64,000 nt of DNA from Desulfonatronovibrio hydrogenovorans DSM 9292 (GTDB taxonomy: Bacteria; Desulfobacterota; Desulfovibrionia; Desulfovibrionales; Desulfonatronovibrionaceae), in the NCBI RefSeq assembly GCF_000686525.1, contig NZ_JMKT01000008.1, forward strand, positions 124,001-188,000. Direction: 5' to 3'. This document shows positions 52,298 through 62,425 of this stretch, piece by piece; within the stretch, counting starts at the first letter, position 1, and every line of letters begins with the position of its first letter. The translations under genes were made by a program, and so were the position numbers. The notes under the pieces were generated by a model. That model had not been told where the DNA came from. It saw only the letters and a program-made list of their open reading frames with translations, and did not search any database.

Positions 52298-53068
52298 ATG
52301 AAAGGCATTTTTGCTTACATGGGCAGAAGCACTCTGGACCTGATGAGGGAGATGGGCCAGATAATGCTTCTTTTTATTGAGGCTCTGTACTGGCTGTTTC
52401 GTCCCCCGTTCAGGATCAGACACTTTTTCAAACAGATGGAATTCATCGGGGTGAATTCTCTGTTCGTGGTCATGCTCACCTCCCTTTTTACCGGCATGGT
52501 CCTGGCCCTTCAGACCTACTATGCCTTTCGCATGTTTTCTGCTGAAACCCTGGTGGGTGCTACAGTGGCCCTTTCCATGACCCGGGAACTGGGTCCGGTC
52601 ATCACCGGACTCATGGTCACAGGCCGGGCCGGATCGGCCATCTGCGCCGAGATCGGGACCATGAGGGTGACTGAGCAGGTGGATGCTCTGACTGTAATGG
52701 CCATCAATCCGGTCCAGTACCTGGTTCTGCCCAGGGTCCTGGCCGGTTTCATTGTCCTGCCCCTTTTGACGGTCATAAGCGATGTCATGGGCATTCTGGG
52801 GGGATACCTGGTGGGGGTGAAGGTCCTGGGTATCCACGGCGGCCTTTTTATGAACAAGATTTACGAATTTGTGGAGCTGGGGGATGTATACAACGGGCTG
52901 GTCAAGGCCTCGGCCTTTGGGGTGATCCTGACCCTTGTGAGCTGCTACAAGGGGTTTTACACCAGGGGCGGGGCTGAAGGCGTGGGCCGTTCAACCACTC
53001 AGGCTGTGGTCATGTCCTCGGTCCTGATCCTGGTGAGCGACTACATTCTGACCGCGCTCATGTTTTAG
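52298..53068 (+). CDS. mlaE: MlaE-type lipid ABC transporter permease
   Basis: This 256-residue inner-membrane permease has about five helices and MlaE signatures: FTGMVLALQTYYAF, MTRELGPVITGLMVTGRAGSA, EIGTMRVTEQVDALTVMAINP and the CYKGFYTRGGAEGVG region. MlaE dimers move phospholipids between the inner membrane and MCE proteins. A gaggg site is 3-4 bases before the ATG. It is the first of three genes with mlaF and mlaD; mlaC, mlaB and mlaA homologues are not in the window. Confidence 0.93.
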   Translation: MKGIFAYMGRSTLDLMREMGQIMLLFIEALYWLFRPPFRIRHFFKQMEFIGVNSLFVVMLTSLFTGMVLALQTYYAFRMFSAETLVGATVALSMTRELGPVITGLMVTGRAGSAICAEIGTMRVTEQVDALTVMAINPVQYLVLPRVLAGFIVLPLLTVISDVMGILGGYLVGVKVLGIHGGLFMNKIYEFVELGDVYNGLVKASAFGVILTLVSCYKGFYTRGGAEGVGRSTTQAVVMSSVLILVSDYILTALMF

Positions 53069-53170
53069 CCAGCCCCGGCTGAGGGTCAGCAGCTACTGGT
53101 TAGGGTGTGCTGTCCGGAATGGGGGCTGATGCGGGATTGAAATTTTTCAAAAATAAGTACAGTCTGAAAA

Positions 53171-53935
53171 ATGAACAGTCTGAAGAAAATAATCGAGCTG
53201 AAAAAGGTCAGCAAGTCCTTTGGCAACCATCTGGTTCTTGATGACCTGGACCTGGGCCTGGAAAAAGACAGGGTCAATATAATCATCGGCCGGAGCGGGG
53301 GAGGGAAAAGCGTCCTTATCAAGCATATCATCGGCCTGTTAAAGCCTGACCGGGGCCAGGTCCTGATTAAAGGCGAAGATATTGCGCCCATGAGTGAGCG
53401 GGAGATATCCAGGATAAGGCGCGGATTTGGGATGCTGTTTCAGGAGGCAGCCCTGTTTGACTCGCTGACCGTGGCTGAAAACGTGGCCTTTCCCCTTCAG
53501 GAGCACACTAAGAAAAGCCACAGCGAAATCATGGAGATCGTGGAAACCAAGCTTTCCTCAGTGGGACTGGCCGGCATGGGCTACAAGATGCCCTCGGAAC
53601 TTTCCGGAGGCATGCGCAAAAGGGTGGGGCTGGCCAGGGCCCTGGCCATGGACCCTGAGATCGTGCTGTTTGACGAACCCACTTCCGGACTGGACCCGGT
53701 GATGGCCGCAGCCATCAACGAACTTATCGTCCGGACCCGGCAGGAGTTCAATGCCACCTGCGTAGTCATCAGCCACGACATTGATGCGACCATGAAGATT
53801 GCTGATCATATTTACATGCTGTATAACGGCAAGATCATTGCTGATGGTTCTCCTGAAGAGATCCGGCAGTGGGATGATCCTGTGGTAAGGCAGTTCATCC
53901 GGGGAGAAGCCACAGGACCCATCAAGGTCAACTGA
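53171..53935 (+). CDS. mlaF: MlaF-type lipid ABC transporter ATPase
   Basis: This 254-residue ABC ATPase has Walker A GRSGGGKSVL, the Q-loop MLFQEAALFDSLTV typical of MlaF, signature LSGGMRKRVGLAR, Walker B IVLFDEPTSGLDP and the H-loop ISHDID. It powers MlaE. It lies 102 bases after mlaE and is followed by a hairpin with a T-run, so mlaD expression may be partly uncoupled. Confidence 0.94.
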   Translation: MNSLKKIIELKKVSKSFGNHLVLDDLDLGLEKDRVNIIIGRSGGGKSVLIKHIIGLLKPDRGQVLIKGEDIAPMSEREISRIRRGFGMLFQEAALFDSLTVAENVAFPLQEHTKKSHSEIMEIVETKLSSVGLAGMGYKMPSELSGGMRKRVGLARALAMDPEIVLFDEPTSGLDPVMAAAINELIVRTRQEFNATCVVISHDIDATMKIADHIYMLYNGKIIADGSPEEIRQWDDPVVRQFIRGEATGPIKVN

Positions 53936-53957
53936 GCTTCAAGCCGTGAGCAGGCTG

Positions 53958-53986
53958 AGACCGGGTTAGTTGAACCGGTCTGTTTT
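53958..53986 (+). terminator. Terminator-like hairpin after mlaF
   Basis: The arms agaccgggtt and aaccggtct pair with one bulged G around a short loop and are followed by gtttt. The hairpin lies between mlaF and mlaD in the same direction, so it may act as a partial terminator that sets their ratio. Confidence 0.5.
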
Positions 53987-54057
53987 AAAGGCCGGTCCTG
54001 CCTTCTGGGTCATGGAAGGGCTGCATAAATTAAAACCGTTTTGTCAGAGAAACCGTC

Positions 54058-55581
54058 ATGTCTCAAAAAATCGGAGTTGAAGTAAAAGTTGGCATTTTTG
54101 TCTTCATCGCAATTATCCTTCTGGCCTACATGACCACCAGGATCACCAAGGGACAGATGGTGACCAGGGACATGTATACCATTTATGCCTATTTTGACAA
54201 CGTGTCAGGACTCAAGACCAACTCACCAGTGGAAATTGCCGGAATTGACGTGGGTGTGGTTCATGAAATCGTTCTGGAAAATAATCTGGCCCGGGTAGGC
54301 ATGGCCATCAGACCGGGAGTGAATATCTATTCCGATTCCAGAGCCACCATCAGGACCAGGGGAGTTCTCGGGGACAAATTTGTGGAGATCAGCCCTGGCA
54401 GCTCCCATATGGCCAGGCTGGGCGACAAAGGCAGTATTGCTGACAGTATTCAGCCCACTGACCTTGACCAAGTCATGGCCAAGGTCGGGGATATTGCTGA
54501 TGACCTGCGCCAGGTTTCCAGGAGTGTGGCTCATGTTCTGGGCGGTCCTGAGGGTGAGGAAGGGATGCGCGATATGTTTGCCAATCTGCGCGAGTTTTCC
54601 GAAAACCTCAATCAGCTGGTCCAGGCCAATACCAAAGGCATTGAAATGATCGTGTCCAATCTTCAGAGTTTCTCGGCAGATCTGGCTGATGTCAGCCACA
54701 GCAACAAGCAGGGCATAAAGCATATCGTGGACAACTTCGAATCTGCATCCAGAGACCTGAATACAGCCCTGGCCCAGATGAGCAGCATCCTGAGCACAGC
54801 CGAGCATGGTGAGGGGCCGGTGTCCACCCTGCTCCAGGATCGGCAGATGAGCGAGGACATGCGGCAGACCGTGGCTTCCCTGGAAAGTCTGACCAGAAAG
54901 ATTGACGAAGGTCAGGGAACTCTGGGCAGGCTGATCAGCGATGACACCACCGGCCAGAAGATCGACGACGCCCTGGACGGAATCAACCAGTTTCTGGATA
55001 AATATGACCGGTTCCAGACCATAGTGGATTTTCATACTGAGTACATGTTCCGGTCCGGTGATACCAAGTCCTACCTGACCCTGACCCTGCAGCCGGCTGA
55101 GGATAAATTTTATCTGCTGTCTCTGATAGACGATCCCAAAGGCAGGACCAGAACCACTGATACTGTAACCAGGAGGTGGAAGGACGGGGAATACTTGGGA
55201 AGCACCAGGGAATACGAACAAAAAACGTACAAAAACCGGCTTAAGTTTTCTGCCCAGCTGGCCAAGAGGTGGAACGACTTCATCCTGCGCGGAGGGATCA
55301 TTGAGTCCACCGGCGGGGTGGGACTGGATTATTTCCTCTGGGATGACCGGCTCAAGTTTTCCTTTGATGCCTTTGACCTGGGTAACGAAGACGACCGGGC
55401 CCACCTAAAGGCAGCAGCCAACCTTTATTTCTTAAATAACTTCTATCTTACTGCCGGGTATGATGATTTTATCAGCAGAACCAGCAAGAACCGGTCCTTT
55501 TTCGGAGGGCTCGGGTTTTACATGACCGATGAAGACCTGAAGTACCTGTTTTCATCAGTCCCTCTGCCTGCCGGAGATTAA
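54058..55581 (+). CDS. mlaD: MlaD/MCE-domain protein with long coiled coil and beta-rich C-terminus
   Basis: This 507-residue protein has an N-terminal membrane anchor (VGIFVFIAIILLAYMTT, ~11-27) and one MCE domain (~38-120, with TNSPVEIAGIDVGVV and TRGVLGDKFVEI). A long helical, coiled-coil-like stretch (~135-320) includes GEGPVSTLLQD and GQGTLGRLISDD. The last ~180 residues alternate polar and hydrophobic residues (FYLLSLIDD, LKFSAQLAKRW, FILRGGIIESTGG, NNFYLTAGYDDF), like outer-membrane beta strands. E. coli MlaD is about 180 residues. A comparable MlaD-barrel fusion has been described in Veillonella. The barrel assignment here is by eye. Confidence 0.85.
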   Translation: MSQKIGVEVKVGIFVFIAIILLAYMTTRITKGQMVTRDMYTIYAYFDNVSGLKTNSPVEIAGIDVGVVHEIVLENNLARVGMAIRPGVNIYSDSRATIRTRGVLGDKFVEISPGSSHMARLGDKGSIADSIQPTDLDQVMAKVGDIADDLRQVSRSVAHVLGGPEGEEGMRDMFANLREFSENLNQLVQANTKGIEMIVSNLQSFSADLADVSHSNKQGIKHIVDNFESASRDLNTALAQMSSILSTAEHGEGPVSTLLQDRQMSEDMRQTVASLESLTRKIDEGQGTLGRLISDDTTGQKIDDALDGINQFLDKYDRFQTIVDFHTEYMFRSGDTKSYLTLTLQPAEDKFYLLSLIDDPKGRTRTTDTVTRRWKDGEYLGSTREYEQKTYKNRLKFSAQLAKRWNDFILRGGIIESTGGVGLDYFLWDDRLKFSFDAFDLGNEDDRAHLKAAANLYFLNNFYLTAGYDDFISRTSKNRSFFGGLGFYMTDEDLKYLFSSVPLPAGD

Positions 55582-55682: not shown

Positions 55683-55967
55683 ATGGAAAAAGTTCTGTTT
55701 AAAAGCGAGGAAAAAAAACAGGCTTCAGAGGTTGCCTCAATCCTGAGGACCATTGCGGACAAGGTGGAATCAGGCCGGATAGAGCTGTCCAGGGGACAGG
55801 AAAAGATCGGACTGAATGTCCCAGGTTCCCTGACTCTGGAGATCAAGGTGGAAGAGGAAACCAAAACCGGAAAATCCACCCTGAAAAAGTCCCTGGAGAT
55901 TGAGCTTGAGTGGATCGAAGGCGAAGACGGTCAACCAGCCCAGCCGGGATCGGTAAGCATCGGCTAG
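55683..55967 (+). CDS. Amphi-Trp domain protein
   Basis: This 94-residue cytoplasmic protein has VASILRTIADKVESGRIEL, a strand-rich centre, and the ending LEIELEWIEG that characterises amphi-Trp domain proteins of sulfate reducers and archaea. The family's function is unknown. An aggaggt site lies 5 bases before the ATG. It is monocistronic and followed by a good intrinsic terminator. Confidence 0.8.
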   Translation: MEKVLFKSEEKKQASEVASILRTIADKVESGRIELSRGQEKIGLNVPGSLTLEIKVEEETKTGKSTLKKSLEIELEWIEGEDGQPAQPGSVSIG

Positions 55968-55992: not shown

Positions 55993-56030
55993 AACCAGCA
56001 GGGCCGTCCAGGTCCTGCTGGTTCTTCCTT
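55993..56030 (+). terminator. Intrinsic terminator after the amphi-Trp gene
   Basis: A perfect 10-bp stem (aaccagcagg with cctgctggtt) with an 11-base loop is followed by the T-rich cttcctt, 26 bases after the stop codon. Confidence 0.7.
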
Positions 56031-56142: not shown

Positions 56143-57006
56143 ATGTCTTTTTTAAAAGCCCTAATCATTCATCCTGAGCGGGAGGTGACCACCCGGCTGA
56201 GGGAGTTTCTCAGCAAAGAAAGCAGGGTCAAGGTCCTTGGCGAGGCCATGACTTCCTTTGAAGCCCTGGAGCTTCTGGAAAACATTTCCTATGATGTATT
56301 TTTCCTGGGGATCAACCTTCCCAGCGGGGTGGACGGTGTGGAACTGGCCCAGATCCTGAATCAGAGGAAAAAAAGACCCAACATCGTGTTTGTCGCTGAT
56401 GACGAGTCCCTGGCCTACAAGGCCTTTGAAGTGGGAGCCACTGACTATCTGGTCTGGCCTTTTTCCAGTTCCAGGGTGGCTAAGACCATTGAAAGGCTGC
56501 ACAGGTTTTCCAGTCAGACCAGGATCGTGGACCGGGATAAGCCCGACAACTCCAGTCTTCAGGAAGATCTGGAAGAGGAAACCGTTCAGCTGAACCTGGC
56601 TGATGTAGACGAGGATTCGTTTCTGACCGCCCTCAGGCAGGCCTGGGATGTGAACCGCGGTTCCCGTCTGGAAATTGAAAAGCTGCCCATCAACCTGGAT
56701 GGAAAGATGATCCTGGTTCCCTATAACCAGATCGTTTTTGTGGAGGCTTACGAGGACTACAGTTTTGTGCATACCTCACAGGAGAAATTCCTGACATCCT
56801 ACCGGCTCAAGAACCTGGAAGAGCGGCTCAACAGGCATGGGTTTTTCCGGGTCCACCGCAAATACCTGGTCAACCTGGAGATGGTTACGGAAATAGCGTC
56901 ATTGCCTGGCAGCAACTTCATGCTCAGGACGGCCGGACGCAAGAAGATCGAGCTGCCCATCAGCCGGAGAAGGATCAGTGAGCTGAAGCAGATCCTGGGT
57001 CTTTAG
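56143..57006 (+). CDS. LytTR-family regulator with a degenerate receiver domain
   Basis: Residues ~1-125 have the length and order of a response-regulator receiver. The phosphorylation chemistry is gone: the acidic pair is replaced (LIIHPERE), the phospho-Asp position is Gly56 in FFLGINLP, the Thr position is Ala (VFVADDE), and the conserved Lys before PF is Trp105 (YLVWPF). Residues ~185-287 are a LytTR DNA-binding domain (VPYNQIVFVEAYEDYSFVHT, HGFFRVHRKYLVNLEMV). It should bind DNA without classical phosphorylation. It lies directly upstream of acsA, a likely target. No histidine kinase is adjacent. Confidence 0.88.
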   Translation: MSFLKALIIHPEREVTTRLREFLSKESRVKVLGEAMTSFEALELLENISYDVFFLGINLPSGVDGVELAQILNQRKKRPNIVFVADDESLAYKAFEVGATDYLVWPFSSSRVAKTIERLHRFSSQTRIVDRDKPDNSSLQEDLEEETVQLNLADVDEDSFLTALRQAWDVNRGSRLEIEKLPINLDGKMILVPYNQIVFVEAYEDYSFVHTSQEKFLTSYRLKNLEERLNRHGFFRVHRKYLVNLEMVTEIASLPGSNFMLRTAGRKKIELPISRRRISELKQILGL

Positions 57007-57086
57007 CAGGAGCTTCTTTCCCACCGTTCAACCAGATGGAATGGCCTTTAGCCGATTAAAGATCCCGTTTTATTTGAATTGAATTA

Positions 57087-57130
57087 AATATACCATTGAT
57101 TTCCAAATGTACTGACTAGACCGGTATATT
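57087..57130. promoter_or_regulatory. Inverted repeat in the acsA upstream region
   Basis: The sequences aatatacc (57087-57094) and ggtatatt (57123-57130) are perfect complements 28 bases apart in an A+T-rich stretch, 70 bases before acsA and after the LytTR gene. It may be a regulator-binding site or promoter region; no clear -35/-10 pair can be assigned. Confidence 0.35.
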
Positions 57131-57199
57131 CACAGCAGACTTCAACTGATCAAAAGATAGAGCGCCGGGCAGCAGCTGCCGGGACAAAGGAGGATTTTT

Positions 57200-59119
57200 A
57201 TGGAAGGCAAAGGAGCACTTGATTCCCTGCTTCAGGAAGAAAGGGTATTTCGTCCGCTTCCCCAGATGGTCATCGAAGCCAACATCAATCCCCAGGAATA
57301 TTCCGAGGTGATGAAAAAGACCAGGGACGATTACCTGGACTACTGGGAAGAGGCAGCCAGAGAACTGGACTGGTTCAAGAAATGGGACAAGGTCCTGGAT
57401 GACTCTGAAGCCCCGTTTTACAAATGGTTCACCGGTGCCAAGTGCAATATAGTCTACAATGCCCTGGACCGGCATATTGAGACGGCCAATAAGAACAAGC
57501 TGGCCCTCATCTGGGAAGGAGAACCCGGCGACTCCAAGAAAATGACCTATTATGAGCTGTACCGGGCTGTTAATAAATTTGCCAATGCCCTCAGGTCCCT
57601 GGGTATTAAAAAAGGGGACAGGGTCATCCTTTACATGCCTCCTTTGCCGGAAACCATGATTGCCCTTCTGGCCGTGGCCAAGGTGGGAGCAGTGCACAGC
57701 ATGGTTTTTGCCGGTTTTTCGGCCAAGGCCCTCAGGGATCGCATTGATGACGCCCAGGCCAAGCTGGTGATTACAGCGGATGGTTTTTACCGCAACGGCC
57801 GGGTGATCAACCTCAAGGGCATTGTTGATGAGGCCCTTGTAGGCGGATGTGACTGCGTAGACACGGTTGTGGTGGTTCACCGGGCCAATGTGGAAATCGA
57901 GATGACCGAGATGCGCGATATCTGGTATGAAGACCTGGTCCGCAAGGAGAGTCCGGTTTCCGAGACCGAGGTCATGGATTCTGAAGACATGCTTTTTCTG
58001 CTGTACAGCTCAGGCACTACAGGTAAACCCAAAGGCATAGTCCACACCCATGGCGGGTATATGGTCGGGGTTCACCGCTCTTTGAACTGGGTCTTTGACA
58101 TCAAGCCCACGGATATTTTCTGGTGTACGGCTGATGCCGGCTGGATCACGGGCCACAGCTACGTCATTTATGGTCCCTTGATGGCCGGAACCACCACCAT
58201 TATGTTCGAGGGTCATCCCCTGTATCCCCAGGCAGACCGTCTGTGGCATATTGTGGCCAGATACGGGGTGAATATTTTTTATACAGCTCCGACCCTGATC
58301 AGGATGCTGATGCGTTTTGGGGCCCAGTACCCAAAGCAGCATGACCTGTCTACCCTGAGGCTGCTGGGAACAGTGGGTGAACCCATCAATCCCGAGGCCT
58401 GGATGTGGTTCTACAAGAACATCGGCCGGTCGGAATGTCCGGTCATGGATACCTGGTGGCAGACTGAGACCGGTTCCTTTATGATCAGCCCCCTGCCCAT
58501 TTCCCTGCTCAAACCCGGATCAGTTACCAAGCCCCTGCCCGGCATTGAAGCCGAGGTGCTGGACGAAGAAGGAAAGCCTGTTCCCCCAGGCAAAGGAGGC
58601 TACCTGGTCATTAAAAGGCCCTGGCCCTCCATGCTTCGGACCCTTTACAAGGATCCGGAACGGTACAAACAGACCTACTGGGAAAAATTTCCCGGTTACT
58701 ACCTGGCCGGTGACGTGGCCCGCAAAGATGAGGACGGATACTTCTGGATTCAGGGCCGTTCAGACGATGTCCTGAACATTGCCGGGCACAGGGTGGGCAC
58801 TTCTGAGCTTGAAAGCGCCCTTGTCTCTCATAAGTCAGTGGCTGAAGCCGCTGTCATTGGTATTCCCGATAAAATCAAGGGTGAGGTGGCCAAGGCTTTT
58901 GTCACTCTGAGCGCTGACGTTGAAATCGATGATACTGATGAGCTGATCAAGATCCTCAAGACCCATGTGCGCAAGGAGCTGGGGCCGGTGGCCGTGGTCA
59001 AGAGTATTGAGTTCAGGGACAAGCTGCCCAAGACCAGGAGCGGTAAGATTATGCGCCGAGTGCTCAAGGCCCAGGAACTGGGTGAGGAGGTTGGAGACAC
59101 TTCCACTCTGGAAGATTAA
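57200..59119 (+). CDS. acsA: Acetyl-CoA synthetase (AMP-forming)
   Basis: This 639-residue enzyme converts acetate, ATP and CoA to acetyl-CoA, AMP and pyrophosphate. Motifs are [52 protein letters not shown] and the catalytic lysine K616 in [10 protein letters not shown], the usual target of regulatory acetylation. An aaaggagg site precedes the ATG. It lies just after the LytTR regulator and ends in an intrinsic terminator. In sulfate reducers it may run in either direction of acetate use. Confidence 0.95.
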
Positions 59120-59253: not shown

Positions 59254-59553
59254 ATGGACAGGAAGGAAATCAGGGACATTTTGGAGAGCTTTTTTCAGAA
59301 GTACAGGAAGTCTGAAGGAGACGACAGTACTTATACTGCTTTCTGGGCAGACCGGACCCCTGCCGGGACTGTTGAGATCGCCATGACCAGGTGTCCGGCA
59401 GATACAACCTTCAAGTTTTATCTGGACCGGAAAAAGGTGGATGAAGTCAAGGAATGGGATGGGTTTTTTCCTGCCCTGGACAGGTTTGCCAGGGAGCATG
59501 GGGATGCCTTTGATCCAGAATCATTCTTTGCCGGAATGAAGGACATGACCTGA
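59254..59553 (+). CDS. Small hypothetical protein (99 aa)
   Basis: This 99-residue soluble protein has DILESFFQKYRKSEGDD, then a central strand pair (TVEIAMTRCPADTTFKFYLD) and an acidic helical end. A strong ggggggaa ribosome site precedes the ATG. I do not recognise the family. It lies 72 bases beyond the acsA terminator and converges on the next minus-strand gene. Confidence 0.7.
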   Translation: MDRKEIRDILESFFQKYRKSEGDDSTYTAFWADRTPAGTVEIAMTRCPADTTFKFYLDRKKVDEVKEWDGFFPALDRFAREHGDAFDPESFFAGMKDMT

Positions 59554-60625: not shown

Positions 60626-62425
60626 ATGTTTCGGATTCGCAGGATATACGATGACTCCCTGGGCAGGGACCGGGAAGTGATTGATCAGGCCAGACAGATC
60701 CTCAAAGAACAGTTTCCCCAGATGGCTGCAAAGGATATCGCTCTGCTGCCGTCCCAGCTCAGGGACCCTCTTAAACATCGGTTCAGGAGCATTTTGTTTG
60801 CTGGAGAAGATCAGTCCTGGAATTTAAGAGGCTTTGCCCTGCTCATGCACGCAACTGACCTTGATTTCTGTTACCTGGACTATATATCTGCAGCCGGAAA
60901 CAGGACCGGATCAGGTATTGGAGGGGCTCTTTACCAGCGGGTCAGGGACGAGGCCAAATCCCTTGGGGTCAGAGGGCTTTTTTTTGAGTGTCTGCCAGAT
61001 GAACCGGACCTTTGCCAGGACAAGGACATCCTGGCCCAGAACCGGGCCAGACTGAGATTTTACGAACGCTTTGGGGCCAGACCGGTGTCAGGAACCGCCT
61101 ATGAAACCCCGCTCAAGCCAACGGATGACTGCCCGCCGTTTCTGGTCTTTGACCATCTGGATCAGGACAGCCCCCTGAGCCGGAAAGAGGCCAGGGTCAT
61201 GGTCAGGGCTATCCTGGAACGCAGGTACAGCCACAAGTGCCCGCCCGGATATATTGACATGGTGGTGGACTCCTTCCAGGATGATCCAGTCAGGCTGAGG
61301 GATTTCAAATACGTGAAGAAGAGCCGTGAAAAACCGGCCAGGCCCATGTATCCGGACAAGGTGATAGCCCTGTGTGTCAATGACCGGCATGATATTCACC
61401 ATATCCATGAAAGGGGATATGTGGAAGCACCGGTCAGAATCTCAGCTATCCTGAATCAGCTGGACAGGACCGGGCTGTTTGAACGGGTCAGGATTTCCCG
61501 TTTTTCTGAAAAGCATATCCTGGAGGTCCACGACCAGAAACTGGCGAATTATCTGAAAAGGGTCTGTGCCGGACTTAAACCTGGTAAATCGGTTTATCCG
61601 TACGTCTTTCCGGTCCGCAATGCAGCAAGGCCTCCCAGGGACCTCCCGGTCAGGGCGGGATATTTCTGCATAGACACCTTCACCCCCATCAACAGCAATG
61701 CCTACCTTGCCGCCAGGAGAGCTGTGGATGCCACTCTGACTGCTGCAGCATGTCTGCTCAAGGGATACCGGCTCAGTTACTCTCTGGTCAGGCCGCCGGG
61801 ACACCATGCCGAGAGGAAAGTCTTTGGGGGGTTCTGCTACTTCAATTCAGCTGCAGTTGCTGCCAACTACCTGAGTAAACTAGGAAAAGTGGCAGTCATC
61901 GATCTGGATTATCACCACGGCAACGGGACCCAGGATATATTTTACAGTCGGCCAGATGTGCTGACCATATCCATGCATGGCCATCCAAGGTTTGCCTATC
62001 CCTATTTCAGTGGTTATTCCAAGGAAAAAGGAGAGGGTCCAGGAGCCGGGTTTAATGTGAACTATCCTTTGCCTGAAAGTCTGGATGGGAAAAAATTCAG
62101 GCTGGTCCTGGAAAAAGCCCTGAAAAAGATCAACCGGTTCAAACCCCTTTTCCTGGTGGTTTGCCTTGGGCTTGATCCGGCCAAGGGAGATCCTACTGGA
62201 ACCTGGTCCCTGAAGGCTGAAGATTTTGCTCTTAACGGACGGATGATAGCCTCCACCGGCCTTCCTGTCCTGGTGGTCCAGGAAGGAGGATACAGGGTCC
62301 GTTCCCTGGGCGTAAATGCAGCTGCTTTTTTCCAGGGCTTGACCGGGAGTCTGCCGCAGCCAGCGGGCACTAAGGATAAAGTTTCTGCATCCAGGGGTCT
62401 TGATGTACCTGGCAGGCTTCCCTAG
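60626..62425 (+). CDS. GNAT acetyltransferase fused to a histone-deacetylase-family hydrolase
   Basis: Residues ~1-180 look like a GNAT N-acetyltransferase (GFALLMHATDLDFCYLDYIS, then GSGIGGALYQRVRDEAKSLG for acetyl-CoA binding, and RLRFYERFGARPV). Residues ~240-590 are an HDAC-family zinc hydrolase: RPPGHHAERK (H393, H394), GGFCYFNSAAVAANYL, zinc ligands D428 and H430 in LDYHHGNGTQ, and D517 in GLDPAKGDPTG. Bacterial members deacetylate polyamines or proteins. One chain could therefore both add and remove acyl groups. An aggagg site lies before the ATG. The substrate is unknown. Confidence 0.88.
   Translation: MFRIRRIYDDSLGRDREVIDQARQILKEQFPQMAAKDIALLPSQLRDPLKHRFRSILFAGEDQSWNLRGFALLMHATDLDFCYLDYISAAGNRTGSGIGGALYQRVRDEAKSLGVRGLFFECLPDEPDLCQDKDILAQNRARLRFYERFGARPVSGTAYETPLKPTDDCPPFLVFDHLDQDSPLSRKEARVMVRAILERRYSHKCPPGYIDMVVDSFQDDPVRLRDFKYVKKSREKPARPMYPDKVIALCVNDRHDIHHIHERGYVEAPVRISAILNQLDRTGLFERVRISRFSEKHILEVHDQKLANYLKRVCAGLKPGKSVYPYVFPVRNAARPPRDLPVRAGYFCIDTFTPINSNAYLAARRAVDATLTAAACLLKGYRLSYSLVRPPGHHAERKVFGGFCYFNSAAVAANYLSKLGKVAVIDLDYHHGNGTQDIFYSRPDVLTISMHGHPRFAYPYFSGYSKEKGEGPGAGFNVNYPLPESLDGKKFRLVLEKALKKINRFKPLFLVVCLGLDPAKGDPTGTWSLKAEDFALNGRMIASTGLPVLVVQEGGYRVRSLGVNAAAFFQGLTGSLPQPAGTKDKVSASRGLDVPGRLP

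Follow-up and report, generated by a model that had tools for sequence, protein, structure and literature searches.

An acs-linked LytTR regulator with a pseudo-receiver domain in Desulfovibrionales and its candidate direct-repeat operator

Introduction

The closest described system is DVU0749 of D. vulgaris Hildenborough, a LytR-type regulator encoded in an operon with acs (DVU0748) (Rajeev 2011, PMC3333781). According to that report, DVU0749 carries Gly at the position of the phosphorylated Asp, has no nearby kinase and is unlikely to be activated by phosphorylation, and its in vitro targets in a DNA-affinity-purified chip (DAP-chip) assay were DVU2969 (a second acs), DVU2970 and DVU0443-0448 (PMC3333781). 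We analyzed a 64,000-nucleotide stretch of Desulfonatronovibrio hydrogenovorans DSM 9292 (assembly GCF_000686525.1, contig NZ_JMKT01000008.1, positions 124,001 to 188,000), hereafter the window, in which the gene at positions 56143-57006 encodes a LytTR regulator directly before acs, the gene for acetate--coenzyme A (CoA) ligase. Comparison with relatives makes it probable that this protein regulates acetate activation without Asp phosphorylation, through a direct repeat upstream of acs. The main point of the first-pass annotation of this DNA, a LytTR regulator without phosphorylation residues, has been published before for an orthologue, DVU0749. New here are the order-wide association with acs, a candidate LytTR direct-repeat operator and an apparently stepwise loss of the pocket. 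Beyond Rajeev 2011, no paper naming DVU0749, DVU0748 or DVU2969 was found in a search mostly outside subscription journals; DVU0749 is unnamed in the main text of PMC10102598, and the main text of Rajeev 2011 (PMC3333781) names no binding motif for it.

The LytTR regulators BtsR, YpdB, AgrA, ComE and S. aureus LytR have the same two-domain build as the window regulator, and the candidate site described below fits their site geometry. LytTR sites generally consist of two repeats of 9-11 nucleotides with a spacer of 11-13 nucleotides. These five regulators retain the residues of the phosphorylation pocket. Control of acs by a response regulator is also known in gammaproteobacteria, where CrbR belongs to another DNA-binding family than LytTR. 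The CrbS/CrbR (MxtR/ErdR) system resembles the role predicted here in its target, acs (PMC5436829). CrbR needs its REC domain and is paired with a hybrid kinase (PMC5436829), whereas the window regulator lacks a working pocket and the neighbouring genes scanned include no kinase.

The pseudo-receivers of RitR, ChxR, GlnR, JadR1 and RedZ are the nearest parallels for the receiver. Like the window regulator, they combine a receiver fold without the phospho-Asp with an aromatic residue at K-3, here Y102. Among Asp-less receivers, 70% are still basic at the pocket Lys position and 65% retain the first acidic residue (PMC4395418); the window regulator has neither. By the same account, no structure of the Gly type had been solved in 2015 (PMC4395418), and a 2025 review describes the mechanisms that switch bacterial pseudo-receivers as still a mystery (PMC12632262).

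Results

Locus, protein and fold

The regulator and its predicted target were located as follows.

56143..57006, + strand: LytTR response regulator with a pseudo-receiver, 287 amino acids (aa), assigned through relatives to the DVU0749 orthologue group
56161..56490, + strand: pseudo-receiver domain, aa 7-116, with H10, P11, G56, A85 and W105 in place of the catalytic residues
56704..56997, + strand: LytTR DNA-binding domain, aa 188-285 (Pfam)
57200..59119, + strand: acs, acetate--CoA ligase (AMP-forming), predicted target

In Pfam, the Response_reg profile (PF00072) matched aa 7-116 at 53.6 bits (cut-off 30.2) and the LytTR profile (PF04397) matched aa 188-285 at 88.9 bits (cut-off 22.6), so the protein belongs to the LytTR transcription regulators by the curated cut-off. 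It is neither BtsR nor LytR, because both NCBIfam scores fell under their cut-offs (132 bits against 246 for BtsR and 126 against 375 for LytR). The acs product scored 921.9 bits with the NCBIfam acetate--CoA ligase profile (cut-off 725).

An AlphaFold2 model built from 28 aligned sequences had a mean predicted local distance difference test (pLDDT) score of 77.9, with receiver blocks mostly at 82-95. The best full-length matches in the PDB were ComE chains, and the modelled receiver alone matched the LytR receiver at 1.4 Å and the MrkE receiver at 1.3 Å. Both folds are ordinary in the model, which together with the Pfam scores bears out the earlier statement that the fold and the LytTR domain are intact. 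The relative arrangement of the domains is unsure, because the predicted template modelling (pTM) score was only 0.47.

The regulator was the only LytTR gene found in its own genome assembly (2.94 Mb, 98.9% complete), and the nearest named loci were from Desulfonatronovibrio (85-86% identity). No histidine kinase was detected by a profile scan of 11 neighbouring genes.

The regulator fits the DVU0749 group as an acs-linked LytTR regulator of Desulfovibrionales with Gly at the Asp site; linkage to acs and Gly for Asp are common to DVU0749 and the window protein. D. vulgaris Hildenborough is now placed in Nitratidesulfovibrio, and two named Nitratidesulfovibrio loci (L072 and L076) have the same acs-linked layout and the Gly. 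These two loci differ from the window in having Phe instead of Trp at the Lys position, a longer protein (355 and 361 aa) and a regulator-acs gap without the site described below, while the window species has a 193-base-pair (bp) gap with the direct repeat and one acs. Across Nitratidesulfovibrio and its close kin (L072, L076, L077, L078 and L079), the regulator is 355-383 aa long, longer than elsewhere.

Loss of the phosphorylation pocket and its conservation

When aligned with the solved receivers 2qv0 and 6m8o, the protein has H10-P11 where the acidic pair would stand, G56 in the phospho-Asp position, A85 for the Thr and W105 for the Lys, in agreement with the first-pass claim that every phosphorylation residue had been lost. 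The protein lacks the set that defines a canonical response regulator (acidic pair, phospho-Asp, Thr/Ser and Lys). E12, beside the acidic pair, is still an acidic residue, with D or E there in 87 of the 92 orthologues, and the aromatic residue at K-3 is retained as Y102.

Within Desulfovibrionales, an orthologue was found in 183 of the 348 genomes and in 37 of the 59 genera. After truncated and duplicate rows were dropped, 92 distinct full-length sequences from this order were aligned. The Asp column held G in 74, S in 9, A in 8 and P in 1, and the Lys column W in 83, F in 6 and L, Y and R in one each, so that neither Asp nor Lys occurred in any of the 92. The Thr column was A (86) or S (6), the first acidic column was H in 90, and the second was P in 84 and E in one. 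Nine canonical LytTR regulators of this phylum, including five from Desulfovibrionales, all carried D, D, D, T and K, whereas the window regulator is without all five. These column counts show that the pocket loss is neither an error nor a recent mutation and that the substitutes themselves are kept. The losses in the first-pass annotation are conserved within the order, where none of these orthologues retains Asp56. With a receiver fold recognized by profile and model and no Asp among the 92, the domain falls among the pseudo-receivers, or Asp-less receivers. On this alignment, ordinary Asp phosphorylation is excluded because the Asp, the metal-binding pair and the Lys have all been lost.

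Mean conservation was 0.67 in the receiver and 0.84 in the LytTR domain, and 25 receiver positions were conserved at 93% or more.

Association with acs

Directly downstream of the regulator lies acs, as the earlier annotation had stated. Of 73 loci spanning 8 kb or more, 70 shared this arrangement, with some genomes represented twice in the count and flanks of unequal length; the next commonest tested neighbours occurred in at most 6 of the 73.

Co-occurrence was counted by hand from two tables for the 348 genomes, with RR-type acs defined by a best E <= 1e-240. Both genes were present in 178 genomes and both absent in 164, five had the regulator only and one had RR-type acs only. Among the five, G016, G022 and G046 had weaker acs matches and G053 and G338 had none, and four of these assemblies were at most 86% complete. 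The acs-only genome (G017) was 66% complete; all other regulator-less genomes had a more distant acs or none at E <= 1e-180. The window genome has one acs at E <= 1e-180. Regulator and acs were unlinked in three genomes (G068, G054 and G226).

A direct repeat as candidate operator

Two conserved half-sites lie in the gap between the regulator and acs.

57024..57032, + strand: direct repeat, first half, CCGTTCAAC
57045..57058, + strand: direct repeat, second half, CCTTTAGCCGATTA, 21 bp start to start

Their half-sites and spacing fit the general LytTR geometry, and the sequence comparisons below suggest that 57024-57058 is the operator of the regulator. The consensus in regulator-acs gaps was CCGTTYAMC-N12-CC[GT]TTnGYCGAwwA with a period of 21 bp. 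Of 85 distinct gaps, the 76 of at least 60 bp were scored and the nine shorter ones were left unscored. In 56 of the 76, the direct repeat beat all 20 shuffles, and the spacer was 11 in all 38 gaps with a match score of at least 18. The repeat ended a median of 109 bp before acs. With up to three mismatches allowed, 57024-57058 was the single match in the 64-kb window (chance expectation 0.02) and again the single match, a perfect one, in the whole genome. Across six congeners, 79-89% of the columns in the two halves were invariant, and every column was identical in five or more.

The unlinked-acs genomes and the regulator-less genomes provide tests of the repeat that are independent of the gaps. 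Upstream of the distant acs, G068, G054 and G226 carried matches with 0, 1 and 2 mismatches, respectively. Upstream of acs in regulator-less genomes, no match was found in any of 10 (best, -1.2 bits), those acs being a different paralogue. Second acs copies scored above 9 in 6 of 9 cases in regulator-bearing genomes versus 0 of 10 in regulator-less ones (one-sided rank test, p = 0.001), in a comparison whose copies are not independent and which mixes paralogues. In G087 and G091, the match before the second acs was strong in the second half only. By eye, there appear to be three half-sites 20-21 bp apart upstream of the second acs in these genomes (L193 and L194). Both genomes are probably Nitratidesulfovibrio, judging from their similar gap sequence and the split match; if they are, these half-sites would fit the published DVU2969 target.

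The first-pass annotation had instead pointed to an inverted repeat between the two genes. Such repeats exist at two places.

57113..57132: imperfect palindrome, unconserved in congeners
57165..57183: inverted repeat immediately ahead of the ribosome site, possibly that noted earlier, also unconserved

At 57113-57132, 0% of the columns were identical in all six congeners and 5% in at least five; at 57165-57183 the values were 5% and 63%. The earlier remark was right as to their presence, but as elements that matter they gave way: neither was kept as an operator, being unconserved within the genus, and it is the direct repeat that is conserved.

Self-regulation was rejected as a general feature, as only three of 80 loci (L060, L100 and L112) had a matrix match above 14 bits in the 350 bp preceding the regulator. 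A wider regulon was also dropped, because the pattern at up to two mismatches had about as many matches in 16 genomes as a reversed control. Of 14 match regions, those with a connection to acetate lay at acs in G068 and in G054, at a second acs in G098 and, with one mismatch, upstream of a Gpr1/Fun34/YaaH-family gene in G203 (L167). This family includes acetate transporters; the match itself may be due to chance. The other match regions, including three in G328 and one by an acetolactate-synthase-like gene in G203, were set aside as having no evident link. The window genome has one candidate gene for a solute:sodium symporter.

Relatives in a sister class

Among 395 genomes drawn from the whole phylum, full-length relatives outside the order (39-44% identity) occurred only in families f44 and f77, whose six genomes are all those of their class in the dataset. 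In these six, the acidic pair was never intact and Thr was replaced by Ala or Ser; the Asp was retained in five and the Lys in all six. The next gene after the regulator was acs in four of them (L206-L209).

With the six pocket columns masked, a 55-row tree built from 40 of the 92 orthologues together with all six sister-class and all nine canonical proteins separated three groups with support of 95/93 for the order, 99/95 for the sister group and 100/99 for the canonical set. Long branches were flagged, so that the groups are more secure than the root. On this tree the second acidic position, the Thr and the Lys each changed once and the Asp twice. On the simplest reading, the pocket was eroded in steps, with metal binding and Thr lost first and Asp and Lys later, because the sister-class orthologues are without the acidic pair and Thr yet mostly with Asp and Lys. 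The acidic pair and Thr would then have been lost in an ancestor shared with this small class, and the changes from Asp to Gly and from Lys to Trp would date to the Desulfovibrionales ancestor.

In L207, L208 and L209, a 21-bp repeat of variant sequence was seen by eye, with low matrix scores (-4.2 to 2.3). A gene with HTH_17 and PBP_like domains (Pfam on L209 only) stands immediately upstream of the regulator in L207 (partial), L208 and L209; it is a possible small-molecule sensor partner of the regulator.

Neighbouring genes in the window

Two further features flank the regulator and acs.

55993..56023, + strand: 13-pair terminator-like stem that separates the regulator from the amphi-Trp gene (consensus match only)
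60626..62425, + strand: GNAT-like segment fused to a histone-deacetylase domain, 599 aa (Pfam)

The stem suggests that the regulator heads its own transcription unit. It is preceded by a gene for an amphi-Trp domain protein (55683-55967) and a MlaE/ABC/MlaD set (52298-55581), an arrangement seen in near relatives only. A 99-aa open reading frame after acs (59254-59553) had no Pfam or NCBIfam match.

In the fusion, 1.5 kb past acs, the GNAT-like part was weak (20.7 bits, at the cut-off) and the histone-deacetylase part scored 250 bits. It recalls the AcuA/AcuC system, which controls Acs by lysine acetylation. A link to acetyl status through this gene was set aside, as it was found in none of the 73 other regulator loci within the flanks covered.

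Discussion

The published in vitro data on DVU0749 and the comparative data presented here support a tie between the regulator and acs genes. In the mechanism that we propose, a pair of LytTR domains would bind the direct repeat upstream of acs, and in some genomes also of the second acs, and the regulator would control acs transcription, probably as an activator. Activation is more likely than repression because the site lies well upstream of the acs start codon. The receiver fold may have been kept as a dimerization or signal-input module, gated by something other than phosphate, such as a small molecule or a partner protein.

Several points weigh against this interpretation. The weight matrix placed 66 of the 76 gaps above 15 bits, and it was derived from the same gaps, so these scores are partly circular. 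The repeat is missing from 10 of the 76. In the Nitratidesulfovibrio loci L072 and L076, the site was found neither in the gap nor in the 350 bp before the regulator, and other lineages whose gap is short or unusual have no site there and mostly none upstream of the regulator either. Matches at two mismatches are mostly chance, because the reversed control pattern matches about as often, and several matches with 0-1 mismatch (three in G328) fall within open reading frames or by unrelated genes. The orthology with DVU0749 is drawn through L072 and L076, not through the sequence of DVU0749 itself, and the DAP-chip binding reactions of 2011 contained acetyl phosphate (PMC3333781).

We rank several possible ways of gating, among them the ligand, partner or acetyl status suggested by the first-pass annotation. 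The leading candidate, held tentatively, is a small molecule: the rebuilt pocket (H10, G56, A85 and W105) or a nearby surface would bind a metabolite of acetate flux, namely acetate, acetyl phosphate, acetyl-CoA, AMP or CoA, and thereby alter dimerization and DNA binding. The substitutes are specific and held across the order, which is not free drift, the acs product makes acetyl-CoA, and JadR1, RedZ and ShkA are precedents for ligand binding by pseudo-receivers (PMC4395418, PMC12632262). However, the conserved H10 and W105 could be structural, and known ligand sites of pseudo-receivers are mostly on faces other than the old phosphorylation pocket. The narrower idea that the pocket itself was rebuilt with His, Gly and Trp, turning a two-component regulator into a one-component sensor of acetate or acetyl-CoA, is speculative, and we think it unlikely.

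A constitutive factor, with the receiver locked as an active dimer and control exerted through the regulator level or other factors at the acs promoter, is possible though on the doubtful side. ChxR, which is Asp-less, binds DNA constitutively (PMC4395418), and DVU0749 yielded DNA targets in vitro though it cannot be phosphorylated on Asp (PMC3333781); the strong conservation of receiver positions is less expected for a mere scaffold, and a self-regulating loop is not general among the 80 loci. We give rather less credence to gating by a partner, in which Acs, an acetyltransferase or another protein would dock on the pseudo-receiver, or by Lys acetylation of the regulator. GlnR is a pseudo-receiver regulator known with Lys acetylation and other modification (PMC4395418, PMC12632262), and candidate partners exist in the deacetylase-domain fusion of the window and the HTH_17 and PBP_like gene of the sister class, but neither neighbour is conserved: the fusion was not found in the flanks covered at the other loci, and the sister-class gene occurs in only part of that class. 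Neutral decay of an unused receiver would agree with its conservation being lower than that of the LytTR domain; we regard it as very improbable, given the 25 strongly conserved receiver positions, the fixed specific substitutes and the retention of the gene in 37 of 59 genera.

The proposed function would assign a regulator to acetate activation in sulfate reducers. With one clear target gene, a predicted operator and conservation across the order, the family offers a clean test case for pseudo-receivers, and its value is increased by the sister-class relatives, which hold Asp and Lys without the metal-binding pair. If the reading of the pocket as a metabolite sensor is true, the sister class would hold living intermediates of its stepwise derivation.
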